Of a stretch of DNA of 64,000 nt, positions 27,764 to 44,934 are shown one piece after another. The DNA comes from Nitrosomonas sp. (GTDB lineage: Bacteria; Pseudomonadota; Gammaproteobacteria; Burkholderiales; Nitrosomonadaceae). The notes beneath the pieces were generated by a model. That model was not told the origin of the DNA and ran no database searches. It saw nothing but the letters and a program-made list of their open reading frames with translations. A program made the position numbers and the translations under genes. The DNA is taken from contig NZ_JAMWZS010000004.1 in the NCBI RefSeq assembly GCF_024282095.1, positions 1 through 64,000 on the forward strand, in the 5' to 3' direction. Positions within the stretch are counted from its first letter, which is position 1; every line of letters begins with the position of its first letter.

Positions 27764-29137
27764 TTAACCTCTTAAAATCATAATCAGTGCATTAAAATCC
27801 CGACTCACGACAGGATCGGAGACGCGTAATTCGTTAATTTTTCGGTAACCGTGAAGTACAGTTGTATGATCTCTTCCACCAAAGGCTTCGCCGATATCCG
27901 GTAAACTCAGAGAAGTTAGTTCCTTGGCAATTGCCATCGCCATTTGTCGAGGTCTTGCGACAATGCGTGTGCGTTTTTTTGAGTACATCTCCGATACTTT
28001 GATTTTGTAATAATCAGCGACGGTTTTCTGGATGTTCTCAATCGATATTTGACGGCTCTGTACAGCCAGCAAATCCTTTAATGCCTCCTTGGCCAGATCG
28101 AGTGTTATTTCCTGGCCGACGAAGCGTGAGAAAGCCAGTACCCGTTTTAATGCACCTTCCAGTTCACGTACATTCGAGCGGATATGCTTGGCAATAAAAA
28201 AAGCGACATTTTCGTCCAGCCGGATTTTTTCCAACTCGGCTTTCTTTAATAAGATTGCAACACGCATTTCCAATTCAGGTGGTTCTATTGCTACGGTTAA
28301 TCCCCATCCAAATCGTGATACCAGCCGCTCTTCCAATCCGGAAATTTCTTTCGGATAAGAATCGCAGGTAATGATGACTTGTTTGTGTGTTTCTATGAGT
28401 GCATTGAAAGCATAGAAGAATTCTTCCTGAGTGCGATTTTTACCACCGAAAAATTGCACGTCATCAACCAATAAGAGATCCAGTGAGTGATAGTAAAGTT
28501 TAAACTTATCAAAAGCTTTATGCTGGTAAGCGCTCACGACATCCGAGACATATTTTTCAGCATGCACATAGCGGATTTTCGCACTTTTGTCATTGTCATG
28601 CACGTAATTACCAATTGCCTGGATCAAATGGGTTTTTCCTAAGCCTACGCCACCATAGATAAAAAGCGGGTTATAAGCAATTCCAGGTGATTCCGCAACT
28701 TGGATGGCGCCCGCCCGAGCCAGCTGGTTGGCTTTTCCCGTAACGAAATTATCAAATGTGAAGCTAGGATTCAGGCGGCTGGTATTTTTCCTTGTCGGTG
28801 GATATGCCGTACTCGATATAGGTTTCGGTTCACTGGGTATATGTACTGGCGCTGGATCAGGTGGCGTATTTTTAACTTCAGGTTGATTTGCAAGCTTCAG
28901 GTGAAACTGGATTTTTTTAGCAAAATATCCTTGTGCCATCACTTCGATATGAGTAATGAAGTTGTCTTTTACCCACTGTGACACGAAACGATTCGGGGCG
29001 ATGAGTACGACTTCACTGTCGCTATTGAGTGTTGGATCGATTTGTAGCGGCTTGATCCAAGTATTAAATTGTTGTGCGTTAAGTTCTTTTCTGAAATGAT
29101 CCAGGCAAGATAACCAGAAGGTGTTGAGTGATTGCAT
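27764..29137 (-). CDS. dnaA: Chromosomal replication initiator DnaA
   Basis: The 457-residue protein has all four DnaA domains: the helical N-terminus ([13 protein letters not shown]), a variable Pro/Ser linker (about 90-125), and an AAA+ domain with Walker [18 protein letters not shown], Walker [11 protein letters not shown] and sensor/arginine-finger segments. The C-terminal DNA-binding domain contains [14 protein letters not shown] and [12 protein letters not shown]. It binds DnaA boxes and opens oriC. Here panC-panB lie upstream on the same strand, with 68 bases between panC and dnaA. The stop codon is in the near-palindrome TTAACAGGTCGTTAA (27753-27767). Confidence 0.98.
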
Positions 29138-29205: not shown

Positions 29206-30036
29206 TTAATCGGTTATTTCCAGGTTGTCGATTAACCGTGTTTTATCCAACCAAGCCGCACCTAATATCACTAGATCGTCATCGTCGCTATGTGCAGGCA
29301 TCAGCGAGCTGCGTTTTTGGATTCGAATGTAATCAACTTTCCATCCGCGTTTCGCAAGATTTTTAGTAGCGTTTTCTTGCAATACCGGAAAATCTTTGCG
29401 GCCGGAAATAATTTCTTGCTTAAGCTGCAGCAGCGTTTGATACAGATTGCAGGCTTCCAATCGTTGTGCGTTATTTAAGTATTGGTTGCGCGAACTTAAC
29501 GCCAATCCATCGGGTGCGCGGACGGTTTCACCGGCAACAATCTCAATCGGTAAATTCAATTGTCGTACCATTTCACGCACGATATGCAATTGCTGGTAAT
29601 CTTTTTTACCGAATACAGCGAGACTGGGTTGAATGATATTGAATAATTTCAATACGATTGTTGCAACACCACGAAAAAAACTCGGACGAAACTCTCCTTC
29701 TAACGTATCTGCTACAGGTGGTAATGCTAGCAAGAATTCTTGCTGTGTTGGGAAAAGAATTTCTTCATTCGGTGCAAAAAGGGTATTGACATTCAGCTCG
29801 GCAAGCAATTTGCAGTCATTGTCAAAAGTGCGCGGGTAGCGGTCGAAATCTTCGTGTGGCAGAAATTGCAGTCGATTGACAAAGATGCTGGCAACCACGC
29901 AATCGGATAGCTGTTTTGCTTGCTTGATCAATGCGAGATGACCCGCATGCAAATTCCCCATGGTGGGAACGAAAGCGATACGTTGTTTATTGCTGAGGCT
30001 ATTACGTAGCGCGATGATGTCGGTAAATGTTTTCAC
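29206..30036 (-). CDS. panC: Pantothenate synthetase
   Basis: The 276-residue protein has the nucleotidyltransferase HxGH motif in FVPTMGNLHAGHLALI, the ATP-binding FGKKDYQQLHIVR and the DGLALSSRNQYL substrate loop. It condenses pantoate with beta-alanine using ATP, the last step of pantothenate synthesis. It follows panB by only 14 bases and is certainly co-transcribed with it. The partner folK and pcnB genes, adjacent in a common gene order, lie beyond the RiPP island at 37 kb. Confidence 0.97.
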   Translation of the reverse strand: MKTFTDIIALRNSLSNKQRIAFVPTMGNLHAGHLALIKQAKQLSDCVVASIFVNRLQFLPHEDFDRYPRTFDNDCKLLAELNVNTLFAPNEEILFPTQQEFLLALPPVADTLEGEFRPSFFRGVATIVLKLFNIIQPSLAVFGKKDYQQLHIVREMVRQLNLPIEIVAGETVRAPDGLALSSRNQYLNNAQRLEACNLYQTLLQLKQEIISGRKDFPVLQENATKNLAKRGWKVDYIRIQKRSSLMPAHSDDDDLVILGAAWLDKTRLIDNLEITD

Positions 30037-30050
30037 ACAATGACGATTAA

Positions 30051-30842
30051 TTAAAATTCATGTTCTTGGCCTGGAAACTGGCCAGTTTTGACAGCAACCA
30101 CATAGTTTGCAACGGCTTCCTGAATGCTATTAGCACCTGCCATAAAATCTTTGACGAAACGGGGTTTTTTACCTGAATACAATCCCAGCATATCGTGCAG
30201 CACCAGAACCTGAGCGGAACAATCAACACCGGCGCCGATTCCGATGGTAGGTATCGTAAGCGCGTGGGTAATCTTTTTAGCCAGTTTTGCCGGCACAACT
30301 TCCATGACCAGCAGACTTGCTCCGGCTTTTTCCAGGTTTTTTGCATCATCGAGCAATTGTTTGGCTGATTCCTCCGAATTACCCTGTAATTTATAGCCGC
30401 CAAGTTGGTGAACTGACTGCGGTGTTAGGCCTATATGGGCACAAACGGGAATACCACGTTGTGTCAGGAATTGGACAGTATCCACCATGATTTGCCCGCC
30501 TTCAATTTTGACCATATGTGCGCCCGCAGCAATAATCCTGGCAGCATTCTCGAAAGCCTGTTCAGGTGAAACCTGGTAGCTGCCGAAGGGCATGTCGGTC
30601 ATGATAAACGCCTTGTCGGCACCACGCGCAACACACCGGGTATGATAAATCATATCGTCCAGTGTCACCGATAGCGTGGTGCTTTCTCCGTGCAACACAT
30701 TTCCCAGCGAATCGCCCACCAGCAAAACATCCACCCCTGCGTTTTTCAGTATGCCTGCAAAAATCGCGTCATAACAGGTCAGGACCGTGAATTTTTCATT
30801 GTTATCAACAAGTTTTTGCAGTGTGGCGAGTGTGGTTCTCAT
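30051..30842 (-). CDS. panB: 3-methyl-2-oxobutanoate hydroxymethyltransferase
   Basis: The 263-residue protein has the PanB motifs VLTCYDAIFAGIL, LLVGDSLGNVLHG (metal-binding Asp), PVCAHIGLTPQSVHQLGG, PTIGIGAG and QVLVLHDMLGL. It transfers a hydroxymethyl group from methylene-tetrahydrofolate to alpha-ketoisovalerate, the first committed step to pantothenate. It heads a panB-panC unit on the minus strand. Directly upstream, where folK would be expected in the pcnB-folK-panB-panC order, is a 512-base non-coding gap and then the plus-strand RiPP island. Confidence 0.97.
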   Translation of the reverse strand: MRTTLATLQKLVDNNEKFTVLTCYDAIFAGILKNAGVDVLLVGDSLGNVLHGESTTLSVTLDDMIYHTRCVARGADKAFIMTDMPFGSYQVSPEQAFENAARIIAAGAHMVKIEGGQIMVDTVQFLTQRGIPVCAHIGLTPQSVHQLGGYKLQGNSEESAKQLLDDAKNLEKAGASLLVMEVVPAKLAKKITHALTIPTIGIGAGVDCSAQVLVLHDMLGLYSGKKPRFVKDFMAGANSIQEAVANYVVAVKTGQFPGQEHEF

Positions 30843-31354
30843 GTAGTGTTTTAATGCCTGAATTGCTGAACGGCTGCTTCGTTTTGTCTGGGTGACGCCA
30901 TGATAACGTATTTGACCTATCCAGTCTTTGTGATAGCAATATCACCGATTTTCCTCAGTGAATTTCTCACCGTTGGCGTGATTATTATCACAGCGATTCC
31001 GATTGCGTAACACTATTCTGAGCACGCCGTAGTTGATTGTCATATGCAGAAAAATCAGCAAAAAAGTCGGAGGTATGACTGCCATGTGCAGATCATGGTG
31101 GCTGTTCTGTATGTAAGGTTTATTTTTGTCATCAGTTTTGCTCAAGCGCCCAGCCGGATTGGGATGGCGCGCAGGTTTTCGCGGTCGTCGGTGGAACGTG
31201 TGGTGCTGAATAAAACGTTTAACTTTATGATTTATTTATAGAAATATGTAGTAAAAAAGATCAATATTTTTTATACCTTGCCTGTGGAATCTGGTAGTCG
31301 CTCTACAGTCTAGGTTTAATTAAGCGACTACTGCAATTAGTTTTAAGGAGAAAT
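30843..31354. other. Intergenic region between panB and the RiPP island
   Basis: The 512-base spacer lies between divergent transcripts, so it should hold the panB promoter and the island promoter. Overlapping open frames of 65-67 codons on opposite strands (30942-31145 and 31044-31241) have no convincing start signals or family features. The only clear structure is an 8-bp inverted repeat at 31295-31330, just before the short peptide gene. No transposase remnant, tRNA or direct-repeat attachment site is visible. Confidence 0.5.
31295..31330. promoter_or_regulatory. Inverted repeat upstream of the double-glycine peptide gene
   Basis: TAGTCGCT (31295-31302) and AGCGACTA (31323-31330) are perfect inverted repeats separated by 20 bases, ending 24 bases before the first ATG of the peptide gene. 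It could be an operator for a dimeric regulator or a stem in the 5' leader. The spacing between arms, about two helical turns, fits a DNA operator. No regulator gene is visible in the island. Confidence 0.4.
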
Positions 31355-31465
31355 ATGATGGAAGAATTAGATAATTATGAAGTTAATCAAATTTCTGGAG
31401 GCTCTTTAGCAGAGTGGTTTCCATGGTTGGATGAACGGAACTATTATCGTTTGTACGGTTTTTGA
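31355..31465 (+). CDS. Short double-glycine leader peptide, bacteriocin-like
   Basis: The 35-36-residue frame (ATGATG; the second ATG at 31358 has 7 bases to AAGGAG) begins MEELDNYEVNQISGG and continues with a 20-residue aromatic-rich core (SLAEWFPWLDER, then NYYRLYGF). The leader with acidic residues, hydrophobic V/I spacing and a terminal GG is the classic cleavage signal for C39-peptidase exporters. Such an exporter is encoded 1.4 kb downstream on the same strand. The core has no Cys and only one Ser, so a graspetide-like modification is unlikely. It may be an unmodified microcin, a signalling peptide, or a substrate of an unknown enzyme. It is followed by a strong hairpin. Confidence 0.7.
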   Translation: MMEELDNYEVNQISGGSLAEWFPWLDERNYYRLYGF

Positions 31466-31503
31466 TCTGCGGAACTAATGCAATTTGTAATTAATAGTTG
31501 GTG

Positions 31504-31533
31504 ATGGCTGAACAAGGAAATTTTTTCAGCCAT
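31504..31533 (+). terminator. Hairpin between peptide gene and exporter genes
   Basis: ATGGCTGAA (31504-31512) and TTCAGCCAT (31525-31533) form a perfect 9-bp stem with a 12-base loop, 38 bases after the peptide stop. There is no long U-run after it. A partial terminator or processing hairpin between a peptide gene and its transporter genes is a common way to make more peptide than exporter. Confidence 0.5.
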
Positions 31534-31583
31534 TGCCTAAATTAGTAAACAAAGTTTAAAGTTTCTTTATCGATGATGGCCAA

Positions 31584-32831
31584 ATGAAACAGTCACTTTT
31601 TCGCTCCGATGCTTTATCTCATGAGCAGGATCGTCTGCATGGCAACGTGTTGATCGTTCGATCACCAACCATCCGGTTTCTCGTCTGGGTGACTGTTTTA
31701 TTTGCTATTACATTGGTGGGTTTTGCCTTCTGGGGTGAATACACGCGTAAGGAGCATGTCGTGGGTTATTTATCTCCTACGCAGGGCATGATCAAGATCT
31801 ACTCACCGCAAACAGGCACCGTACTCGAAAAACACGTCGATGAAGGACAGTTGGTCAAGCAAGGGGATATCCTGTTGACCATTTCCAGTGAACGCGCCAC
31901 GTCCACAACGCGCGAAACCCAGGCGGCCATGCTGATAGAACTCAAACTGCGGCGTGATAGCTTGCGGTTAGAGCAAGGCAAGCAGCAGGAAATTGATGCG
32001 TTGACAGGCAGCGGTATCGCAGGGCGGATACGCGGACTGGAAACTGAGATTCGAGAAGCGCAGGCGCAATTGGCGTTGCAATCCAGTCGTGTGGCCAGTG
32101 CTGAGCGTACGGTAGCACGTTATGAAGAACTACTGACGGAGCGCTTCGTTTCCGACGCCGCATTGCAGGAAAAACAAGAGGAATTGATCAACCAGCGCAA
32201 TCAACTTGCGCAAATAAAACGTAGCATCACCAGTCTGAATCGTGAACTGAATACTGCACGAGTGGAGCTCTCTACCTCCGGATTAAAACGCGATAACAAC
32301 ACATCGGCAATCGAACGGCAGATTTCCGAGTTGGAACAGCAGTTGACCGAGGCGGATGTACGACGCAGAGTCGTGTTGACCGCGCCTGCCGCTGGCACTG
32401 TCACAACCATTCTGGCTGAAATCGGACAAACCGCTAATCCCAATGCACCACTGCTTTCAATTCTGCCAGAGGACGCTGAATTGCAAGCACAATTACTCGT
32501 GCCCACGCGCGCGGCGGGCTTTATCAAACCCACTCAGCAAGTTTCTTTACGCTATCAGGCGTTCCCCTACCAGCGCTTTGGGCATCATTTGGGAGAGGTT
32601 GTTGAAATTGGACGCACGGTCATTCAGTCGAACGAGTCTAATTTACCGTTATCCATTCAGGAATCGGTATACCGCGTGACCGTTCGATTACCTCGTCAGC
32701 AGGTTCAGGCGTATGGACAGGCCATGCCTTTGCAGGCAGGCATGGTGCTGGATGCGGACATTCATATGGATCGGCGGCGTCTGATCGAGTGGGTGTTTGA
32801 TCCGCTACTATCCATTACAGGCCGTATTTAG
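31584..32831 (+). CDS. HlyD-family periplasmic adaptor of a peptide exporter
   Basis: The 415-residue protein has one N-terminal membrane helix (FLVWVTVLFAITLVGFAFWG), a biotinyl-lipoyl-like half motif (IKIYSPQTGTVLEKHVDEGQLVKQGDILLTI) and a long coiled coil (about residues 115-260). The second lipoyl half (LTAPAAGTVTTILAEIGQT) and a beta-barrel end follow. This is the CvaA/HlyD type of membrane fusion protein that bridges the inner-membrane ABC transporter and an outer-membrane TolC-like duct. Its stop (32829-32831) overlaps the ribosome-binding site of the C39 ABC gene. The TolC-family gene at 42.8 kb could supply the duct. Confidence 0.92.
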   Translation: MKQSLFRSDALSHEQDRLHGNVLIVRSPTIRFLVWVTVLFAITLVGFAFWGEYTRKEHVVGYLSPTQGMIKIYSPQTGTVLEKHVDEGQLVKQGDILLTISSERATSTTRETQAAMLIELKLRRDSLRLEQGKQQEIDALTGSGIAGRIRGLETEIREAQAQLALQSSRVASAERTVARYEELLTERFVSDAALQEKQEELINQRNQLAQIKRSITSLNRELNTARVELSTSGLKRDNNTSAIERQISELEQQLTEADVRRRVVLTAPAAGTVTTILAEIGQTANPNAPLLSILPEDAELQAQLLVPTRAAGFIKPTQQVSLRYQAFPYQRFGHHLGEVVEIGRTVIQSNESNLPLSIQESVYRVTVRLPRQQVQAYGQAMPLQAGMVLDADIHMDRRRLIEWVFDPLLSITGRI

Positions 32832-32843
32832 GAGGTGGCTATC

Positions 32844-35018
32844 ATGCTCAACTTTTCCCTTAGCCATCGTGTTCCGGTGATTCTGCAAACTGAAGCTGCA
32901 GAATGTGGCCTGGCGTGTTTAGCCATGATCACCGGGTACCATGGACACCGCATCGATCTGGCAACTTTGCGCGCCCGTCACGCCGTTTCATTACGCGGTT
33001 CGACACTGGCTGATTTAATGAAAGTCGCAGGTCTACTCAAACTCACACCCCGGCCTCTGCGACTTGATCTCGAACATTTACCGGAGCTTAAGCTGCCTTG
33101 TGTGCTGCATTGGGATTTCAATCATTTTGTGGTGCTGACACAGGTTCAGGGTAATCGGGTCATACTGCATGACCCCGCAGTCGGTGAACGCGAAATGCCT
33201 TTATCCGAGTTTTCCAAACATTTTACCGGGGTGGCGTTGGAACTCACGCCGACCAGTGAATTTATGCCGCGTGACGATACACGCAAGGTGAAGCTATCGT
33301 CGCTGATCGGCCACTTGCAAGGACTAGGTGGAACGGTTACACAGATCCTGATTCTGGCCCTGGTATTGCAGCTTTTTGCCATCCTGGCGCCTTTTTACAT
33401 GCAGTGGGTCGTGGATCAGGCGCTGGTGGCGCAGGATTATGATCTTGTCACGGTGTTGGGAATCGGGTTTCTATTGCTTGCCGTGGTGCAAACGGGTGTG
33501 ACGGCTTTACGTGCTTGGGTATTGATGGTATTGAGTACGACGCTGAATTTGCAAATGATCACGAACTTGTTTCGTCACTTGATTCGCTTGCCCATGAGCT
33601 GGTTCGACAAACGCCACATTGGCGATGTCGTGTCGCGCTTTGATTCACTCAATGTAATACAACGCACGCTGACAACGGGATTTCTGGAAGCGTTGATCGA
33701 TGGTGTGATGGTTGTCGTCACGCTGGGCATGATGCTTTTTTACAGTATCAAGCTGGCACTGATCGCGATTATTGCGGCTACGATTTATGCCTTGCTGCGT
33801 TTTGCGCTATACCGTCCATTTCGTCTTGCCACGGAAGATCACATTGTACGAGGCGCAAAGCAACAAAGTCATTTCCTTGAAACCATTCGCGGCATGCAAA
33901 GTATCAAGCTTTTTGCTTATGAGGCACCGCGTACGGCCACCTGGCAGAATCTCGCTGTAGACCAGTTCAATGCCAGCATTCGAACCCAGCGATTGGGCAT
34001 TTTGTATCAAGGCCTCAACGGTTTTCTATTCGGTATTGAAAATGTGATCATCATCTGGTTAGGCGCCATGCTGGTGCTGGACAATGCAAGCGGAAGCGGC
34101 TTTTCAATAGGGATGTTATTTGCTTTTATTGCCTATAAAACCCAATTTGTGCAACGAATGGCTGCATTGATTGAAAAAGGTTTGGAACTGCGCATGCTGG
34201 GGTTACATACTGAGCGGGTGGGCGATATTGCACTGACACCTGCAGAGCAGGACGATGAGTCAGGTAGTGTCGACACTCCCCTCGATGGTCGAATCGAAGT
34301 TAAGCACTTGGCTTTCCGTCATTCAGAAACAGATCCTCTTGTGCTGCAAGATGTCAGTTTCAGTATTAAAGCGGGAGAATCGGTAGCTATCGTTGGCCCA
34401 TCAGGCTGTGGCAAAACGACGCTGGTTAAGCTCATGTTAGGATTGTTACAACCCACCGGCGGAAGTATCGAAGTGGATGGTATTCCACTGAACCGTTTGG
34501 GAATTACACGATACCGCCAAGCAGCCGCCAGCGTCATGCAGGATGATCAGTTATTTGCCGGCTCCATCGCTGAAAATATCTGTTTTTTTGATCCACAAGC
34601 TGATTACAGCCGGATTGAGGCCAGCGCCCGACTTGCAGTCATTCACGATGACATCACGACAATGCCGATGCAATACAATACGTTGGTGGGAGATATGGGA
34701 ACAGTGCTGTCAGGCGGCCAGAAACAGCGTTTGTTGCTCGCCCGTGCGCTCTACCGTCAACCGAGTATTCTGTTTCTGGATGAAGCTACCAGTCATCTCG
34801 ATATCGCTCGGGAACACAGTGTGAATGAAGCCATAAGTACACTTAAACTGACGCGTATCATTGTGGCACATCGCCCGGAAACGATTGCCAGTGCAGATAG
34901 GGTGATTGTACTCAATGGTGGAAAAATTATCAGTGATATGCTAACCCAATCATCTGTTCATGCATTGGAATCCGCTATACCTTCCTCGGAGGTGCCGCGA
35001 GTTGTTGTGGCAAATTAA
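32844..35018 (+). CDS. C39-peptidase ABC exporter (PCAT) for double-glycine peptides
   Basis: I start at ATG 32844, not the GTG at 32835, because GGAGG at 32831-32835 is the ribosome-binding site and ends at that GTG. The 724-residue protein has an N-terminal C39 cysteine peptidase with QTEAAECGLACLAMI (Cys21), FNHFVVL (His94) and HDPAVG (Asp110). Six transmembrane helices and an ATPase domain follow (Walker A GPSGCGKTT near 518, signature LSGGQKQR near 622, Walker B ILFLDEATSHLD). It would cut leaders after Gly-Gly and export the core peptide. Substrates with GG leaders lie on both sides of it (31.4 kb, 35.3 kb, 35.6 kb). The catalytic triad is intact. Confidence 0.95.
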   Translation: MLNFSLSHRVPVILQTEAAECGLACLAMITGYHGHRIDLATLRARHAVSLRGSTLADLMKVAGLLKLTPRPLRLDLEHLPELKLPCVLHWDFNHFVVLTQVQGNRVILHDPAVGEREMPLSEFSKHFTGVALELTPTSEFMPRDDTRKVKLSSLIGHLQGLGGTVTQILILALVLQLFAILAPFYMQWVVDQALVAQDYDLVTVLGIGFLLLAVVQTGVTALRAWVLMVLSTTLNLQMITNLFRHLIRLPMSWFDKRHIGDVVSRFDSLNVIQRTLTTGFLEALIDGVMVVVTLGMMLFYSIKLALIAIIAATIYALLRFALYRPFRLATEDHIVRGAKQQSHFLETIRGMQSIKLFAYEAPRTATWQNLAVDQFNASIRTQRLGILYQGLNGFLFGIENVIIIWLGAMLVLDNASGSGFSIGMLFAFIAYKTQFVQRMAALIEKGLELRMLGLHTERVGDIALTPAEQDDESGSVDTPLDGRIEVKHLAFRHSETDPLVLQDVSFSIKAGESVAIVGPSGCGKTTLVKLMLGLLQPTGGSIEVDGIPLNRLGITRYRQAAASVMQDDQLFAGSIAENICFFDPQADYSRIEASARLAVIHDDITTMPMQYNTLVGDMGTVLSGGQKQRLLLARALYRQPSILFLDEATSHLDIAREHSVNEAISTLKLTRIIVAHRPETIASADRVIVLNGGKIISDMLTQSSVHALESAIPSSEVPRVVVAN

Positions 35019-35251
35019 AGAGAAAGAGGGGCGGATTCAAGAACTAACTGCAACAGTTAATGTTTAATAGCGAATTTGCCCATGAAAAATGGATTGCTCG
35101 CCAAGTATGCAAGTAATAGTTAATCCCTGAGGTGCTTTTCCTCACAGATCCCATGATTTAAATCAGATATTTTGTACATGTAAATCAAACTTTGTTTGAG
35201 TTAGTGCAGAATCATTTACACAATTAATGTGACCATGATTCTTGTATGTGC

Positions 35252-35281
35252 TTGATATCAAATTTGGTTTACAACTATGTT
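35252..35281 (+). promoter_or_regulatory. Possible sigma-70 promoter before the precursor peptide genes
   Basis: TTGATA (35252-35257) and TATGTT (35276-35281) are separated by 18 bases and would start transcription about 29 bases before the first precursor ATG. The match is 5/6 and 4/6 to consensus. The rest of the 298-base spacer after the exporter gene (35019-35316) shows no frame or repeat. A separate promoter would let precursors be made in excess of the exporter. Confidence 0.35.
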
Positions 35282-35316
35282 ACACAATTTAAATTTGATC
35301 AATAAGGAGTAAGAAA

Positions 35317-35511
35317 ATGGAAATTAAAGATTCTAATACATACTGGTGTAATGCTGATGGCACGAATAAGTCAGTACAAACAGATCGGATCCTTGCCCGG
35401 AAAGTAGCGCACGAACTGACTTGTGAAGAAGTCAAGGAAATTGCGGGTGGCATGATGAGTGCACACGTTAGTCATTGCGGGCCGTGCTGTGAAGCGGATG
35501 ATTGTTGCTAA
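35317..35511 (+). CDS. RiPP precursor peptide 1, Cys-rich core after a double-glycine leader
   Basis: The 64-residue peptide has a 45-residue leader ending HELTCEEVKEIAGG, with the hydrophobic/acidic spacing typical of C39 substrates, then a 19-residue core MMSAHVSHCGPCCEADDCC. The AAGGAG ribosome-binding site is ideally spaced. The leader is 36/45 identical to that of the next gene while the cores differ, the hallmark of precursor families. The core retains His-x-Ser-x-x-Gly-Pro and a late Asp that are also in the second core. Ser/Asp side chains are possible ester or amide partners for the adjacent ATP-grasp ligase. The five Cys could form disulfides or bind metal. The exact product is unknown. 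Confidence 0.85.
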   Translation: MEIKDSNTYWCNADGTNKSVQTDRILARKVAHELTCEEVKEIAGGMMSAHVSHCGPCCEADDCC

Positions 35512-35542
35512 CGCAATAATTATCTAATTAAGTTTAATAAAT

Positions 35543-35562
35543 CTCGGGAGCTTGCTCCCGAG
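35543..35562 (+). terminator. Strong hairpin between the two precursor genes
   Basis: CTCGGGAG (35543-35550) and CTCCCGAG (35555-35562) form a perfect 8-bp GC-rich stem with a four-base CTTG loop, 31 bases after precursor 1. No U-tract follows. It may act as a partial terminator or as an RNA-stabilising/processing element that sets the ratio of the two peptides and the downstream ligase. Confidence 0.6.
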
Positions 35563-35606
35563 TAATCGGTTCCAAAGGAATTCTTTACCGATAAAGGAGT
35601 AAGAAA

Positions 35607-35798
35607 ATGGAAATTAAAGATTCTAATACACACTGGTGTAATGCTGATGGCACTGATAAGCCAGCACAAACAGAACGGATTCTTGCGCGGAAAATAGCAC
35701 ATGAGCTGACTTCTGAAGAGATCAAGAAAATTGCAGGTGGCATGCCGCAGCACATTAGTTATGTCGGACCACACCATCTACCGAGTGATGTGATATAG
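35607..35798 (+). CDS. RiPP precursor peptide 2, His-rich core after the same leader
   Basis: The 63-residue paralogue of the previous gene has the same AAGGAGTAAGAAA ribosome-binding region, a 45-residue leader ending HELTSEEIKKIAGG and an 18-residue core MPQHISYVGPHHLPSDVI. Compared with core 1 the pattern H-[VI]-S-x-x-G-P is kept, the Cys-Cys after Gly-Pro becomes His-His, and a late Asp is kept; the terminal Cys pair becomes Val-Ile. Leader conservation over core divergence suggests a shared enzyme and exporter with different end products. It ends 73 bases before the ATP-grasp gene. Confidence 0.85.
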   Translation: MEIKDSNTHWCNADGTDKPAQTERILARKIAHELTSEEIKKIAGGMPQHISYVGPHHLPSDVI

Positions 35799-35812
35799 CA
35801 GCCCAAACAAAT

Positions 35813-35842
35813 AGGTGCCATAGATATTTTTCCATGGCGCTT
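35813..35842 (+). promoter_or_regulatory. Hairpin before the ATP-grasp gene
   Basis: AGGTGCCAT (35813-35821) and ATGGCGCTT (35834-35842) pair over eight of nine positions, allowing one G-U pair, around a 12-base loop, 30 bases before the GTG start. Together with the hairpins at 31504 and 35543 it marks a pattern of one hairpin per gene boundary in the island. It may attenuate or stabilise the ligase message. Confidence 0.4.
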
Positions 35843-35871
35843 CGATTCGTATCCATAAAAGGAATGACCTT

Positions 35872-36999
35872 GTGAAAATTTTGATACCAACAATGGTCGG
35901 TGATGATCATGCGCGGATAGTATGCTGTGCAGCCACTCGCAGAGGTATTGATGTGCACAGATGGTTTACTGCCGATTATCCTTGTCGACAATCGATTTCC
36001 ATTTATTATGAGAATGCAGAAGAAACAAATTGGGTTTTTAACGGCCCTTCTCTTAGTTTAGAAAATCAAAAATTTGATGTGATTTGGTTGCGACGCCCCG
36101 TACCTCCGATATTGCCTGATATTCTGCATCCGGAAGATCGGCAAGTCGCAGTGACGGAGAATGCGTTCTTTTTTAGATCACTGTGGCATGCTTTGGCTAA
36201 AGAGGCTTTTTGGATCAACAGCTATCCTGGCCATCTGGCTGCTCGCAGCAAATTATTGCAGTTACGTGAAGCCAAACAATCCGGGTTTACGATACCTCGT
36301 ACGCTGGTTAGTAATGATCCGGACGATATTGCGGCATTTATCCTTAAGAATCAACCGAATCAGACTATTTATAAATCCTTTTTCCCGGCTCGCTGGGATT
36401 TATCAGATGGTAATGCGGCAGTACTGGAAACTACGAAAATAAGTGTGGAGTCATTGCCCAATCCAGAAATTTTGCGGTTAACCCCAGGAATTTTTCAGCC
36501 TTACATTGAAAAGGAATTTGAAGTTCGGGCGACATTTCTCGGTGCACATGTTGTAGCAATTCGTTTGAATTCTCAACATAGCCAGCAAGGAAAAACGGAT
36601 TACCGCGTGAGTCCAATCAATGAACTGGATCCAGAGCCTTATATATTGCCACCTGAAATCTACGAAAGCTGCCGTCAGTTAATGAAAAAACTGAATATCG
36701 TGTTTGGGTGCTTTGATTTTATTGTTACACCAGAACATGACTTCGTGTTTCTAGAAGTTAACGAGATGGGGCAGTTTTTATGGAAAGAACAAGTATGTCC
36801 TGAAACCAGAATTTTGGATGCTTTTCTCGATTTCTTAATGCACCCATCCTTTGATTTTGAATGGCAACCCAGAGCAGATAGGATCAGGTTGAGCTCTATT
36901 ATAGAGAGTGATGAATATAACCGATTAGAGCTGGAAGAAAATACGTTGCATATGCGCAGCTTCCCTAATCCAACGTCGGGATTTTATGAGGCGAGGTAG
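35872..36999 (+). CDS. Graspetide-type ATP-grasp peptide ligase (MvdC/MvdD-like)
   Basis: The 375-residue protein starts at GTG 35872 with AAGGA 8-10 bases upstream. It has the two-part arrangement of RiPP ATP-grasp maturases: an N-terminal pre-grasp region (KILIPTMVGDDHARIV, DVIWLRRPVPPILP), an ATP-binding part (IYKSFFPARWDL, QPYIEKEFEVRATFLG) and the metal/ATP motif GCFDFIVTPEHDFVFLEVNE, then MGQFLW. The last closely matches the FLEVNPxGQ motif of microviridin and graspetide synthetases. These enzymes form ester or amide macrocycles between Asp/Glu and Ser/Thr/Lys of a precursor. The two precursors just upstream are the evident substrates. Base composition is more AT-rich than the flanking folK/pcnB genes. 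Confidence 0.88.
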   Translation: MKILIPTMVGDDHARIVCCAATRRGIDVHRWFTADYPCRQSISIYYENAEETNWVFNGPSLSLENQKFDVIWLRRPVPPILPDILHPEDRQVAVTENAFFFRSLWHALAKEAFWINSYPGHLAARSKLLQLREAKQSGFTIPRTLVSNDPDDIAAFILKNQPNQTIYKSFFPARWDLSDGNAAVLETTKISVESLPNPEILRLTPGIFQPYIEKEFEVRATFLGAHVVAIRLNSQHSQQGKTDYRVSPINELDPEPYILPPEIYESCRQLMKKLNIVFGCFDFIVTPEHDFVFLEVNEMGQFLWKEQVCPETRILDAFLDFLMHPSFDFEWQPRADRIRLSSIIESDEYNRLELEENTLHMRSFPNPTSGFYEAR

Positions 37000-37045
37000 T
37001 AGTGTGATTGGCATAAGCCCGGGTTTTATGAATATGTGTATTCGA

Positions 37046-37546
37046 TTATTTCAATGCTTTAATTTGTTCGAGTTTTTGCTCATCACACGATAAAAGTAAT
37101 TGAGCGATGTCGTTATGTCCCGGAATATGACAATCCGGGGCGATTTCCATCAGCGGTTTCAGGACAAATGCACGTTGTAACATACGTGGATGCGGTAATG
37201 TCAATTTCTCATCACGGCATTGCAGATCATCGTACAACAGAATGTCGAGATCCAGTGTGCGTGGCGCATTCAAAGATTCGCGTACACGTCCATGGTTTTG
37301 TTCGATAGCCAGCAATGCGTTGAGTAAATCATGCGGTGCCAGATAAGTTTCAATGAGTGCCACCGCATTGATGAAATCGGGTTGATCCAGGCGTCCGACA
37401 GGCGCGCTTTGATAAAGCGAAGATTGCTTCATCAAGCACGTACCGGGAAGTTGTTTTAATTCCTCAAATGCGTGCTGAATCTGGGCAATCGGGTTTTCCA
37501 GATTACTGCCCAAAGCAATGAATGCCTGGCTTGGTTGTTTATCCAT
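37046..37546 (-). CDS. folK: HPPK, 6-hydroxymethyldihydropterin pyrophosphokinase
   Basis: The 166-residue protein has the HPPK signatures AFIALGSNLENP, SSLYQSAPVGRLDQPDF, NAVALIETYL and RTLDLDILLYDD (catalytic Asp pair), then LPHPRMLQRAFVL. It pyrophosphorylates the pterin for folate synthesis. It is 12 bases downstream of pcnB on the minus strand. In many Proteobacteria folK is directly followed by panB; here 6.2 kb containing the RiPP island separates them. Confidence 0.96.
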   Translation of the reverse strand: MDKQPSQAFIALGSNLENPIAQIQHAFEELKQLPGTCLMKQSSLYQSAPVGRLDQPDFINAVALIETYLAPHDLLNALLAIEQNHGRVRESLNAPRTLDLDILLYDDLQCRDEKLTLPHPRMLQRAFVLKPLMEIAPDCHIPGHNDIAQLLLSCDEQKLEQIKALK

Positions 37547-37558
37547 GGAAAGGGTGGA

Positions 37559-38947
37559 TCAACTGTGATCGTTTTTGATGGAATTTTCCCCAGCCAAAGC
37601 AGGATCGGGCGAAGATTTTTTGCGCTTGCGCCGTCTTTTGCCTTTTTTTGCTGCCGGCTGGCTGGACAACATTTTTTCGCGCTGGTTGTGATCCGCAGAT
37701 AGAAAGGTTTTCCACCACTCGCCCAATTCCATGCTCAGCTCACCACTTTCACAGCGCAACAGCATGAAATCATAAGCAGCGCGAAAACGCGGGTGGGTAA
37801 GCAAACGAAAGGGTTTTTGTCCGGCGCGAGCCTCAAAGCGCGGCTGCATCGTCCATATTTCTTGGATAATGGCATCAAAGCGACGCGGGATAGCCAGCTT
37901 TTTATGCTGTATCGAAAGAATTTGATCAATTGCTGTAAATAAAGCGGGCAAAGGTTTTTCCCCGGAAGCCTGGAGAGAATTCCAGTTTGACAGCACTTCG
38001 TGCCATAACAGTATGGCAAACAAAAATGCTGGCGAAACCGGTTTATTTTCTCTAATCCGCTCATCGGTATTTTTCAACGCAATGGTGACAAAACGCTCAC
38101 CTAATGGTTGTTCCAGTATGACATCGAGCATGGGTAGAAGACCGTGATGCAAACCGCGCGCGCGTAAATCAACAACGCAAGACAGCGCATGCCCCGACAA
38201 TAGCAGTTTCAACATTTCATCAAACAAACGGGACGGTGGGACGTTTTGCAGTAATGGTGCCAGATCGCCAATGGGCTTGGCGGTTTCCGCCGCAATTTGC
38301 AAATCCAGTTTTGACGCCAGGCGCACGGCCCGTAATAGGCGCACGGGATCTTCCCGGTAACGTTGTACCGGATCTCCGATGATGCGCAGTTTTTTGGCTT
38401 TGATATCTTCATAGCCATTCAGGTAATCTAGAATTTCTTCTTTGGCAGGATCATAAAACAGCGCATTGACCGTGAAATCACGACGCAAGGCATCTTCTTC
38501 CTGATTACCGAAAACATTGTCGTGCAATAGGCGGCCATGCGGATCGGTCAACTGGATCGATGCAGGATCGTCATCATCATTCGAGGAAGGTCCACGAAAG
38601 GTTGATACTTCCACGGGTTCAGCGCCACACATGACATGAACCAGGCGAAAACGCCGCCCGATAATGCGTGACCGGCGAAAAATGTTGCGCACTTCTTCAG
38701 GTGTCGCATTGGTTGCAATGTCAAAATCTTTGGGCGTCAATCCCAGTAGCAGATCACGCACCGCGCCGCCGACAATATAGGCTGAAAACCCGGCTTGCTG
38801 TATCTGAGTGGTTATCTTTAATGCACAGGGGGCGATTAGATTACGCCGAATACCGTGACGTTTGAAGGGAATGATGTTCAGCTTTGCGATCGATTCGGAA
38901 GCCGGTGCCTTGCGGCTGAATACCTTGCGGAGAAATTTACGGATCAT
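37559..38947 (-). CDS. pcnB: Poly(A) polymerase I
   Basis: The 462-residue protein has the class II nucleotidyltransferase head (YIVGGAVRDLLLGLTPKDFD, ATNATPEEVRNIFRRSRIIGRRF) and the RRDFTVNALFYDP and RLLRAVRLASKL motifs. The GRRFRLVHV segment separates bacterial PcnB from CCA-adding enzymes. The C-terminus is strongly basic (KKGKRRRKRKKSS), as usual for PcnB RNA binding. It adds 3' poly(A) tails that promote RNA decay. A second, distinct family member, cca, is at 7.4-8.7 kb. It is co-oriented and probably co-transcribed with folK. Confidence 0.96.
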   Translation of the reverse strand: MIRKFLRKVFSRKAPASESIAKLNIIPFKRHGIRRNLIAPCALKITTQIQQAGFSAYIVGGAVRDLLLGLTPKDFDIATNATPEEVRNIFRRSRIIGRRFRLVHVMCGAEPVEVSTFRGPSSNDDDDPASIQLTDPHGRLLHDNVFGNQEEDALRRDFTVNALFYDPAKEEILDYLNGYEDIKAKKLRIIGDPVQRYREDPVRLLRAVRLASKLDLQIAAETAKPIGDLAPLLQNVPPSRLFDEMLKLLLSGHALSCVVDLRARGLHHGLLPMLDVILEQPLGERFVTIALKNTDERIRENKPVSPAFLFAILLWHEVLSNWNSLQASGEKPLPALFTAIDQILSIQHKKLAIPRRFDAIIQEIWTMQPRFEARAGQKPFRLLTHPRFRAAYDFMLLRCESGELSMELGEWWKTFLSADHNQREKMLSSQPAAKKGKRRRKRKKSSPDPALAGENSIKNDHS

Positions 38948-42500: not shown

Positions 42501-42859
42501 TGCTTGATTTCGATAACAAGGAAATCGTCATTCCCAATAAGACCTTCATCACCGGCCAACTGATCAATTGGACATTGACCGATACCATTACTCGCGTTGT
42601 CATTCGGATAGGGGTTACGCATGGTGCGGATGTAAACAAAGTGCGTGCGTTGCTGTTGCAGGCTGCCAGGGAAGATGACCGGGTGCTGAAAGAACCGGAG
42701 CCATCCTGCTGGTTCCTGACTTTCGGGGCAAAATCTCTGGATTTTGAACTTCGTGTATTCGTTAATACCTTAAATCAGCGATTGGAAGTCCAGAATGCCC
42801 TCAACACACGCATCATGGTGTTATTTGCCGAGCACGGCATCGAGATTGCCGCTACTTGA
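39545..42859 (+). CDS. mscK: Large MscS-family mechanosensitive channel (MscK/KefA-like)
   Basis: The open frame extends to 39284, but that part overlaps rnpB. I take ATG 39545, which starts a signal peptide (LFFVLLCSILALLFWLPGNAYS) and gives 1104 residues, close to E. coli MscK (1120) and MscM (1107). The ribosome-binding site is weak, so the start is uncertain. The architecture is a coiled-coil periplasmic domain (about 30-540), about eight membrane helices, then the MscS core: TVGLGFGLQEIFANFVSG (TM3), the beta domain FERPFRVGDVITVGDLSG, and VIPNKTFITGQLINW. It releases solutes on hypo-osmotic shock. It overlaps the convergent TolC-family gene by 8 bases. kefA is a synonym. Confidence 0.88.
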   Translation: MLLKPVFGFKSLFFVLLCSILALLFWLPGNAYSKNQSSVYKAIDTARAAVGRSKMEEAQRQAAIEYLDAARADEREAETLNEQLTALRAEAADQPARMERLNKALATDRERELLEWSKRLPADADGETLEQLLEQERTIITDLRAQIGVAGTDLALVLSRPAQAADEITALHRRIEEQSTPIVAQSDEPAALFEARRLRRSSEQHRLQAMLELRLTEQDTATQRQSLHELALRELRYRLGLHEKRVEHLQQRITNRGRRELEALSEQLIKREQELAGDAFVLASAAVANRTMGAELIQQNEHLARDRAALASIEQAGEHIAVTLRDSRTRLDVGGTSERVGRWLWSERRQLETPARLELRLELIRNNLADLRLERIMLSEQQRGLLDMGAVARTLVRAHSQADEEGRSDKNIQNLLLPLLHKRTELLALLESLLQRRIAALEKSEQALQQQIQNAQELQQMLDRYLLWIPSHGVINGKWLQRLPDGLHDLIKPSRFTTVMTLSVQNFYQQPAPWLGSLLLILVLLELRRRAPVHIEALAANTYQIRKDSYQTTLKTLGWTLLAALPAPVTLALLGQLLQGVGNPGRFSHSLGQACVLLALPLLAVQLLRWISMERGLGHAHFRWTRQRRTALHYWLPRIAVVVLPLYFVSSLAFIRRLDLAIDVQARMAIMLSCVALAWALWRLLDVGRLWVIRGVVSEPSTLRKLLRVLLPALLLAVAILALTGYVYSAGMILQSLLASFSLIVMIAIGLGLLARWFLLGERRLMLHRLDERRLAAAHAAEESGEVIPEPEENITLEQVNTQTRRLLRALRLSLLALGLIWVWAAILPAITRLDEIALWHISEIGTDGVTIQQPITLMAVLSGIFTLVLTTVGARNLPGLIEISLLSHIRIDVASRYAITSVLRYAIVIGGTLVGLSFLGMRWSQLQWMAAALTVGLGFGLQEIFANFVSGIIVLFERPFRVGDVITVGDLSGRVTRIRTRATTVLDFDNKEIVIPNKTFITGQLINWTLTDTITRVVIRIGVTHGADVNKVRALLLQAAREDDRVLKEPEPSCWFLTFGAKSLDFELRVFVNTLNQRLEVQNALNTRIMVLFAEHGIEIAAT

Positions 42860-44183
42860 TCAGCATGGCATTAATTTGTGTCAGCGTTTCTTCGTCGAGC
42901 TCACCCGCTTCCGCATTCAGACGTAATCTTGACATGAGATAACCGTGATACGCTTTGGCCAGATCACGTCTGGCCGAGTACATTTGTTGTTGTGCGTTCA
43001 GTACATCGACTTCGGTTCTGACACCGACTTTTTGTCCGAGAACGGTTGAATCCAGTTGACTCTGGCTGGATTTCAAGGCCTGTTTGAGTGCGTTTACCTG
43101 TGCAATACCGTTAGTGACATTCAGAAATTGCTGGCGGATCTGCACGGCAATGTTGCGCCGGGTGCTTTCAAGGTCATGCAGCGCTTTATCCTGAAGTGCC
43201 AATGCTTCGCGTACACGGGATTGCACGGAAAAGCCCTGGAATAGCGGTATATTGAGTTGCAGTCCGATCGATTTTGAGACGAGGTCGATGCCGCGGCCGG
43301 TAATGGCACCACCGACGCCGGTTTGATCGCTGTATTGTGCAACCAGATCCAACGTCGGGTAATGTTGCGCCCAGGCCTTTTTTACATCCTGGTGGGCTAT
43401 TTCATAGGCTGCTTGCTGGATTTTCAACGTGAAATTCTTTTCTTCCGCAACGCGTACCCATTCATCCATGCTGCTGTATTGCAAATTAGCCAAATCGGAA
43501 GCGATTTCCTTGGCGCCTACAAGATTTTCAGGAAAGCGGTCAATGATGCCTTGTAACGTGCGCTTCCTGATTTCAAGCGCATTACGCGCGGCAATTTCTT
43601 GCGATGTGGTGAGGTCATGGCGGGCTTGTGCTTCGTTGGTATCCACAATGGTGGAAACACCGACTTCAAAATTACGCTTGGCTTGTTGCAGTTGTATCAG
43701 AATCGCTTTTTTCTGCGCTTCAGCAACTTCGACATCGACCTGCGCATCCAGTACATCAAAATACGCTTGTGCAACCCGTAGTATCAAATCTTGCGCAGCC
43801 ACGACAAATTGTGAATCCGCTCTGCTGACTTCAATTTTTGATTGCTGATAAATGACAATATTTTCCATGCGGAACAGCGGTTGTGTCGCTGATATCGTCA
43901 CACCCCGGCTTTGAATCGTGACTTCCGGCGGATTGATATTGCCGATGTTGTTTGCGTTTACTTGCTGAACCGTGCGTGTTCCCAATAGGGTGATATTCGG
44001 CAAGAAACCTGCTCTACCCTGCGGCAACTTTTCCTGCGCAGCCTGATAGGCGGCACGCGCCGAGCGGTATTGTGCATCCTGTGCCAGCGCTTCATGATAG
44101 ATACCCATCAAATCAGCAGCGTACAGAGCGGAATGCCCTGTAATGCCGATAAAAGCAGCAAAAACGAATTGCAAGCATTTCAT
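42852..44183 (-). CDS. tolC: TolC-family outer-membrane efflux/secretion duct
   Basis: The 443-residue protein has a signal peptide (FVFAAFIGITGHSALYA) and two OEP repeats: DLMGIYHEALAQDAQYRSARA, the ATQPLFRMENIVIYQQSKIEV segment and, in the second repeat, GLQLNIPLFQGFSVQSRVREA. The LRLNAEAGEL ending is typical of TolC of the type I secretion class. It forms the trimeric outer-membrane tunnel for type I secretion and drug efflux. It may serve the HlyD/C39 exporter of the RiPP island, which lacks its own duct. It lies downstream of pcm, a common arrangement, with a 97-base gap. Confidence 0.9.
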   Translation of the reverse strand: MKCLQFVFAAFIGITGHSALYAADLMGIYHEALAQDAQYRSARAAYQAAQEKLPQGRAGFLPNITLLGTRTVQQVNANNIGNINPPEVTIQSRGVTISATQPLFRMENIVIYQQSKIEVSRADSQFVVAAQDLILRVAQAYFDVLDAQVDVEVAEAQKKAILIQLQQAKRNFEVGVSTIVDTNEAQARHDLTTSQEIAARNALEIRKRTLQGIIDRFPENLVGAKEIASDLANLQYSSMDEWVRVAEEKNFTLKIQQAAYEIAHQDVKKAWAQHYPTLDLVAQYSDQTGVGGAITGRGIDLVSKSIGLQLNIPLFQGFSVQSRVREALALQDKALHDLESTRRNIAVQIRQQFLNVTNGIAQVNALKQALKSSQSQLDSTVLGQKVGVRTEVDVLNAQQQMYSARRDLAKAYHGYLMSRLRLNAEAGELDEETLTQINAMLIK

Positions 44184-44280: not shown

Positions 44281-44934
44281 TCAAAAGACAAACTTTGTCG
44301 GTTGCAGTGCATTGATGAGCGGGATTGTACTGGTCTCAAACAATTTTTTAGTTGTGTATTCGCCCGGTGCTACACAAGTGATGAGTGAAGCTTCCATGGC
44401 GGGATCTTCGCCGACAATCGCAAATAATCGACCTCCCGGGTTCAGGCTTTGCAGAAAAGCATCGGGTAAAACAGGCGTCGATGCGGTTAACACGATGACA
44501 TCATAAGGACCATGTTTAGACCAGCCTTGTGCAGCATCGCCTTGTTCGATCGTGACATTCGTAATATCGTGCGCTTTAAGATTATTTTCCGCCATGGTTT
44601 TTAGTTCAGGCACGATCTCAACACTATAAACGTGAGCACCTTTCTCAGCCAGTAGCGCTGCCAGGTATCCACTGCCGCTGCCGACTTCCAGAATTTTGTC
44701 CGTTTTCTTAATGTGAAGTTCTTGCAGTATGCGAGCTTCCATTTTAGGCGCCAGCATGACTTGACCATAGCCCAAAGGAATTTCCATATCCACAAAAGCC
44801 ATGGCGCGATTTGCAGGCAGAGCAAATTCTTCGCGCCGTATTTTGTACAATAAATCCAGGACACTATCATCCAATACATTCCACGTACGGATTTGTTGCG
44901 TAACCATATTTAATCGAGTTTCTTCAAGATTCAT
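44281..44934 (-). CDS. pcm: Protein-L-isoaspartate O-methyltransferase family protein
   Basis: The 217-residue SAM methyltransferase has ARNMVTQQIR-like start residues (LNMVTQQIRTWNV), the catalytic-region FVDMEIPLGYGQVMLAPKMEARILQEL and the SAM loop ILEVGSGSGYLAALLA. VYSVEIVPEL and PGGRLFAIVG follow. It belongs to the Pcm branch that commonly precedes tolC in Betaproteobacteria. Canonical Pcm carries an IGYGQTISQP substrate motif; here it reads LGYGQVMLAP, so repair of isoaspartate is probable but not certain. It is transcribed divergently from thiC and its riboswitch. Confidence 0.85.
   Translation of the reverse strand: MNLEETRLNMVTQQIRTWNVLDDSVLDLLYKIRREEFALPANRAMAFVDMEIPLGYGQVMLAPKMEARILQELHIKKTDKILEVGSGSGYLAALLAEKGAHVYSVEIVPELKTMAENNLKAHDITNVTIEQGDAAQGWSKHGPYDVIVLTASTPVLPDAFLQSLNPGGRLFAIVGEDPAMEASLITCVAPGEYTTKKLFETSTIPLINALQPTKFVF

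Follow-up and report, generated by a model that had tools for sequence, protein, structure and literature searches.

Two tandem precursors with short Cys- and His-rich cores in a very probable graspetide gene cluster of Nitrosomonas sp.

Do two small tandem genes and the ATP-grasp gene that directly follows them in Nitrosomonas sp. form a graspetide locus, and what would their peptides be? We addressed this question in the window, meaning the whole 64,000-nucleotide stretch of contig NZ_JAMWZS010000004.1 that was analysed, starting from a sequence-only reading that had proposed a new graspetide-like family with a possible copper-binding end product.

Layout of the locus and its two precursors

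Five plus-strand genes lie between panB (30051–30842, minus strand) and folK (37046–37546, minus strand), in the order hlyD, PCAT, precursor 1, precursor 2 and ATP-grasp ligase. The hlyD gene (31584–32831, plus strand), encoding the periplasmic adaptor of an exporter, scored above the cut-off for PF13437 in domain profile searches and matched TIGR01843 at 4.8e-45, under the curated cut-off. The gene for a C39 peptidase-containing ABC transporter (PCAT; 32835–35018, plus strand), predicted to cleave the leader after GG and to export the core, carries PF03412 (8.4e-37), PF00664 and PF00005 domains, with a TIGR03796 match at 1.6e-154, under its cut-off. This exporter, the position between panB and folK and the wider leader family described below had gone unmentioned in the sequence-only reading. 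The gap between panB and hlyD (30843–31583) consists of about 740 AT-rich bases (GC 39%) in which no gene was recognised, and lies inside the stretch missing from the closest relative. Additionally, dnaA (27764–29137, minus strand) adjoins panC and panB, placing the cluster about 2.4 kb from dnaA.

The two tandem precursors proposed earlier were confirmed, both on the plus strand. Precursor 1 (64 aa, 35317–35511), an open reading frame also supported by its leader family, comprises a leader at 35317–35451 and the core MMSAHVSHCGPCCEADDCC at 35452–35508; precursor 2 (63 aa, 35607–35798), likewise an open reading frame, comprises a leader at 35607–35741 and the core MPQHISYVGPHHLPSDVI at 35742–35795. 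An identical AAGGAGTAAGAAA stands directly 5′ of the ATG in both genes. The 45-residue leaders end in IAGG and are identical at 36 of 45 positions. A gapless alignment of the 19- and 18-residue cores, with core 1 beginning one residue earlier, bore out the H-[VI]-S-x-x-G-P pattern and the late Asp ascribed to both, with 6 of 18 positions identical (M, H, S, G, P and D), a similarity beyond chance given that 2 of 2000 composition-keeping shuffles scored as high. The same alignment showed that the swap from CC in core 1 to HH in core 2, at the same two positions after Gly-Pro, is real. Between the two precursor genes, dN and dS were 0.09 and 0.33 in the leader and 0.84 and 0.75 in the core, which shows a constrained leader and a core that changes freely but not positive selection as such, the core values coming from only 18 codons, near saturation.

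When 5.8 billion proteins were searched with a single sequence, two matches came back: P0001, which has the core of precursor 1 unchanged and differs from that precursor at two leader positions, and P0002, which is identical to precursor 2. Searching the nitrifier genus for the leader, a check that the sequence-only reading had suggested, recovered the precursors in this genome but in no other of the 85 same-genus genomes, and a scan of viral contigs found no relatives.

Each precursor gene is followed by a hairpin, the first a GC-rich 8-bp hairpin between the two genes (35543–35562, plus strand; region z -2.22) and the second 3′ of precursor 2 (35813–35842, plus strand; region z -2.93); both resemble terminators only when read on the minus strand, and neither has a plus-strand T-run. 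Hairpins in these places might set the ratio of precursor to ligase. Terminator-like sites numbered 10 against 5.7 in shuffles, while promoter-like sites showed no excess (9 against a mean of 11.4 in shuffles). The stretch 3′ of the ligase gene showed no strong hairpin (z 0.94), and no known RNA family reached its gathering score within 30000–38000.

The ATP-grasp ligase and its relatives

The ATP-grasp gene after the precursors is present as described, an open reading frame at 35872–36999 (plus strand, GTG start, 375 aa) containing FLEVNEMGQF, and its assignment as an MvdC/MvdD-type graspetide synthetase is strongly supported by domain, sequence and structure matches. The protein scored 39.2 bits against PF21068 (MvdD pre-ATP-grasp; cut-off 27), and NCBIfam models TIGR04187 (5.4e-53), TIGR04185 (1.4e-50) and TIGR04184 (3.4e-47) matched it at scores under their curated cut-offs (MvdD 161.2 of 475 bits, MvdC 172.3 of 425, SAV_5884 180.2 of 350). 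Its best sequence matches in the PDB were AMdnB (7m4s, 8.1e-39), MdnB, MdnC and CdnC, with PruB at 1e-9. An AlphaFold2 model built from an alignment of 48 rows reached a mean pLDDT of 92.3, making the fold a confident prediction; Foldseek searches with this model returned CdnC, AMdnB, MdnC and MdnB at ranks 1–14 (including 7mgv, 7m4s and 5ig9; 7mgv is the CdnC structure solved with leader and core), and graspetide-type ligases, PruB and PsnB among them, filled ranks 1–32. Residues K168, R219, D282, E295, N297, G300 and F302 are invariant across the 48 aligned rows, and the first five presumably have the ATP and Mg roles assigned to them in the ATP-grasp superfamily.

RimK structures match the model too, from rank 33, and a weak rimK_fam match was found at 1.7e-05, as would suit an enzyme that adds amino acids in RimK fashion and forms no side-chain cross-links, the small genes then encoding plain bacteriocin-like peptides. 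This is extremely unlikely, however, given the MvdC/MvdD/SAV_5884-type models at 3.4e-47 to 5.4e-53, the placing of graspetide-type ligases above RimK by Foldseek, and a leader family tied to a graspetide-type enzyme. The features of the graspetide class occur together here, namely the ligase domain and fold, the conserved ATP/Mg residues, and adjoining precursors with a leader, a GG-type site and a donor/acceptor core, and we regard the locus as very probably a genuine graspetide gene cluster.

A protein search gave 411 relatives of the ligase at E up to 1e-40. Among genomes, with this one included each time, matches were found in 9 of 199 near genomes at 1e-10 and in 2 of 398 genomes of the phylum at 1e-30. 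In a tree of 37 rows, which left out L005, L011 and L051–L056 (8 of 22 locus rows, with no open reading frame under the filter) and contained several long branches, with a program warning of long-branch joins, the window ligase fell into a set of 11 (support 100/99), distinct from the branches that hold Azospirillum/Bradyrhizobium, Lysobacter and Legionella. The other ten members of this set (P0004–P0013) are 77 to 46% identical to the window ligase and sit on contigs of at most 8760 bases; six have no annotated name, three are annotated as hypothetical and one as RimK-type ligase-like. Seven same-genus genomes (L050–L056) carry a different MvdD-like ATP-grasp gene, 24–29% identical to the window ligase, with no precursor of the RILAR leader type recognised within about 1.5 kb on each side; as orthologues these were rejected on identity, and L050 also on its place in the tree.

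The leader family and the predicted rings

A profile combining the two window precursors with P0001 and four members of the RILAR-LT-GG family, seven precursors in all, gave 206 matches at E up to 1, for example P0123 at 7.2e-20, so that the claim of a new family proved too strong. By sequence, the window leaders belong to a RILARxxAxxLT...GG family found in Azospirillum, Bradyrhizobium and Anaeromyxobacter. Motif counts were made on the 120 of 206 matches listed, from which P0001 and P0002 were removed; among these 118 listed matches, 116 contained the leader motif [RK]-h-h-[AS]-[RHY]-x-x-A. At the motif site the window leaders read RILARKVA and RILARKIA, with RILAR and no Pro where the motif Phhx(1,2)h would stand, a motif present in about 50% of precursors and hence not universal (PMC8939145). 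Leader-family genes adjoin ATP-grasp genes at seven of the loci compared (L003, L004, L010, L011, L049, L059 and L060), and a limited literature search, with graspetide and Bradyrhizobium among its terms, found no characterised member of the family.

Several of these loci resemble the window closely. Azospirillum rugosum (L004), Bradyrhizobium (L010 and L060) and Anaeromyxobacter oryzae (L011) have the same RILAR..AR.LT..E.....GG leader adjoining an MvdD-like ATP-grasp gene, and A. rugosum also has the window's order of hlyD, pcat, precursor and ligase, with a PCAT 48.7% identical. These four differ from the window, however, in ligases only 32–35% identical to its own and in cores that mostly read [ST]x[ST]xCPxNDxD. 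In Oxalobacteraceae (L003), hlyD and PCAT lie downstream. Legionella adelaidensis plasmid 26 (L059) is like the window in its tandem precursors (three), IAGG leaders, ATP-grasp gene (39% identical), HlyD and PCAT, but its cores are longer and different, and its hlyD and PCAT come after the ligase, with another gene in between. The three tandem RVhAYQLAK...IAGG precursors there (L059:5328-5945) have differing cores and, like their ligase, are annotated as hypothetical.

Among the matches listed there were 103 distinct cores, of which 4 longer than 45 residues were dropped, and 86 of the remaining 99 contained [ST]x[ST]xCPxNDxD. This near-constant core end is typical of the precursor family (P0123–P0240, L010, L060 and L011). 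The donors of the pattern, at -4 and -2 from the Cys, and acceptors, at +4 and +6, are placed symmetrically, because of which two nested hairpin esters would be expected; the pattern would apparently suit two nested rings. Spacings of [ST]x5D, [ST]x7D and [ST]x9D occurred in 93, 96 and 95 of the 99 distinct cores among the matches listed, where 100 shuffles gave means of 40.4, 37.7 and 34.8; the cores are near-copies of one another and hence not independent counts. The pattern [ST]x[ST]xCPxNDxD is absent from both window cores. Homology of the window cores to relatives' cores, such as the CC-x-x-D of Azospirillum, was rejected by a shuffle test, in which 162 of 2000 shuffles did as well for Azospirillum (the best raw score) and 124 of 2000 for P0224; neither similarity is significant. 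Among the matches listed, the window core type was seen only here and in the near-identical copy P0001.

Which residues would the ligase join? In core 2, two Ser and one Asp allow S6–D16 (x9) or S15–D16 only, and because the latter two are adjacent, S6–D16 is the only sensible pair. The aligned columns of core 1 hold S7–D17, also at x9, with S3, E14, D16 and Cys as a donor as further options. The earlier proposal that the conserved Ser and Asp are linked stands as the best guess in that they make the only non-adjacent pair of core 2, but spacing alone cannot fix the pairing, because x5 and x7 are as common as x9 in the relatives. The x9 spacing taken from relatives is an analogy, since similarity of the window cores to theirs is not significant, and by itself it argues weakly, since shuffled versions of core 2 and core 1 contain an x9 pair with probabilities of 0.05 and 0.10. 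We favour S-x9-D because no other pair occurs in both cores, because its two residues stand on either side of the Gly-Pro that both contain and because its spacing is that of the outer pair in the relatives; on this basis each core would, reasonably probably, carry one Ser–Asp ester closing an 11-residue macrolactone.

In PMC8939145, only two of the new clusters with at least five proteins had a single possible ester. Each corallotide repeat has one Lys–Asp link (PMC13097080), and on variants with a short loop ThfB goes no further than the outer ester (PMC12291112). Core 1, with two Ser and three acidic residues, might still be doubly closed, S3 and S7 being joined to E14, D16 or D17, or a Cys forming a thioester. 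Core 2 would then keep its one ring, and the two precursors would have different topologies; 86 of the 99 distinct relatives' cores among the matches listed are patterned for two rings. Such other or additional cross-links seem rather unlikely, however, in that the gapless core alignment shares just one donor–acceptor pair, and the thioesters mentioned in the excerpt of PMC13097080 are termed non-native there.

The single Ser–Asp ring per core would arise by the following predicted steps. One ATP-grasp ligase would act on both precursors, with the RILARxxA part of the leader docking on it in the manner of PFFARFL in microviridins. The enzyme would phosphorylate the late Asp, which would then be attacked by the Ser at the third position ahead of Gly-Pro, giving the 11-residue macrolactone (S7–D17 in core 1, S6–D16 in core 2; -18 Da), which would fold back at the Gly-Pro turn. 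The microviridins (MdnA with MdnB/MdnC; AMdnB) resemble this system in ligase sequence and fold, and the window leader shares the AR of their leader motif PFFARFL (PMC8939145). Their cores differ: neither window core has Thr or Lys, confirming the earlier view that these are not microviridin-type, whereas microviridins use Thr/Lys donors and form three rings, against one predicted here. The microviridin core pattern is TxKxPSD. Fuscimiditide (ThfA/ThfB) is alike in its nested stem-loop ester logic, and engineered short-loop fuscimiditide substrates stop with the outer ester only (PMC12291112). It differs in having a dedicated PIMT, whereas the window system has a smaller ring, another leader and a single predicted native ester. 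No dedicated PIMT, a mark of the graspimiditides (fuscimiditide type), occurs in the cluster. Some graspetides are tailored by PIMTs; the nearest PIMT-like gene (44281–44934, minus strand) is 7.3 kb away and under both equivalog cut-offs.

Export, metal binding and origin of the cluster

The motifs of the PCAT place its C39 triad at Cys24, His97 and Asp113, the LahT triad being Cys27/His101/Asp117 (PMC6363468). Leader residues L-12, V/I-7, I-4, G-2 and G-1 are present in the window precursors, and the pockets of LahT take L-12, L-7 and V-4 (PMC6363468); by analogy, the double-Gly features fit LahT-type pockets, and cleavage after GG is predicted. The C39 peptidase would thus cut the leader after GG, and HlyD together with a TolC would carry the peptide out. 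A tolC-family gene at 42852–44183 (minus strand) could provide the outer-membrane channel; it adjoins the PIMT-like gene, 6–8 kb from the cluster, and the pair looks like a housekeeping neighbourhood. C39-ABC and HlyD belong to the families most often encoded at graspetide loci (PMC8939145 Table 1), so the export part is ordinary. Once outside, the Cys of core 1 may form disulfides. The products are likely two short exported peptides with Cys- or His-rich cores, each with one Ser–Asp ester ring, and, like some graspetides, they might serve in competition or inhibit proteases.

The sequence-only reading had linked the CC-to-HH swap to copper. That CC and HH take matching places behind Gly-Pro, in a genus that includes ammonia oxidisers (AmoA was found in 13 of the 24 other same-genus genomes searched, and in none of 14 control genomes), would suit mature peptides that bind metal such as copper and act as a chalkophore or metal-sequestering pair. 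In this 81-contig assembly AmoA was not found; repeated amo operons often assemble badly. We consider metal binding very unlikely and found the copper idea to be without support, however: Cys cores occur in leader-family loci of Azospirillum, Bradyrhizobium and Anaeromyxobacter, none of which is to our knowledge an ammonia oxidiser, no metal transporter, receptor or regulator is among the five cluster genes, and the precursors are confined to this one of 85 same-genus genomes. More doubtful still is the specific version in which an ammonia oxidiser exports a matched pair of single-macrolactone hairpins, one showing CC and the other HH at the same position of the turn, that together act as ligands of a transition metal, possibly copper.

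In the closest relative (G052/L066; folK 90% identical), folK and panB are 27 bases apart, so that by gene arrangement a stretch of approximately 30843–37045, bearing the cluster, is absent at the same site. Of 29 other loci from the genus, 18 have panB adjoining folK; in the other 11 panB was not within the approximately 1.5 kb examined, and the ligase was found in none of the 29 folK loci within that distance. The simplest reading is that the cluster was probably gained by horizontal transfer in this lineage, and loss in the relatives is a possible alternative. This reading is based on gene arrangement, because base composition is mixed and says little (GC 42.4% in the ligase, 51.8% in hlyD and 49.7% in PCAT, against 47.7% in the window).

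As a whole, we favour a transferred graspetide cluster whose products have single Ser–Asp rings and are exported by C39-ABC/HlyD, an explanation that we hold to be fairly probable. Its enzyme and export logic is ordinary and its cores appear to be new; the excerpt of Carter 2026 (PMC13097080) describes no core of this type, and a literature search covering titles and the beginnings of abstracts, including PMC9765116 on activated-sludge gene clusters, named no such Nitrosomonas cluster.

The locus offers a compact, testable graspetide system, with two precursors, one ligase and one exporter, in an ammonia-oxidiser genus, and its predicted ring pattern would be among the simplest in the class. 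If the ligand-pair reading were true, it would be a metallophore on a graspetide scaffold. The window precursors are tied to a widespread leader family whose soil members keep a constant, two-ring-like core pattern, so that ligase, leader and number of rings lend themselves to comparison within a single family.
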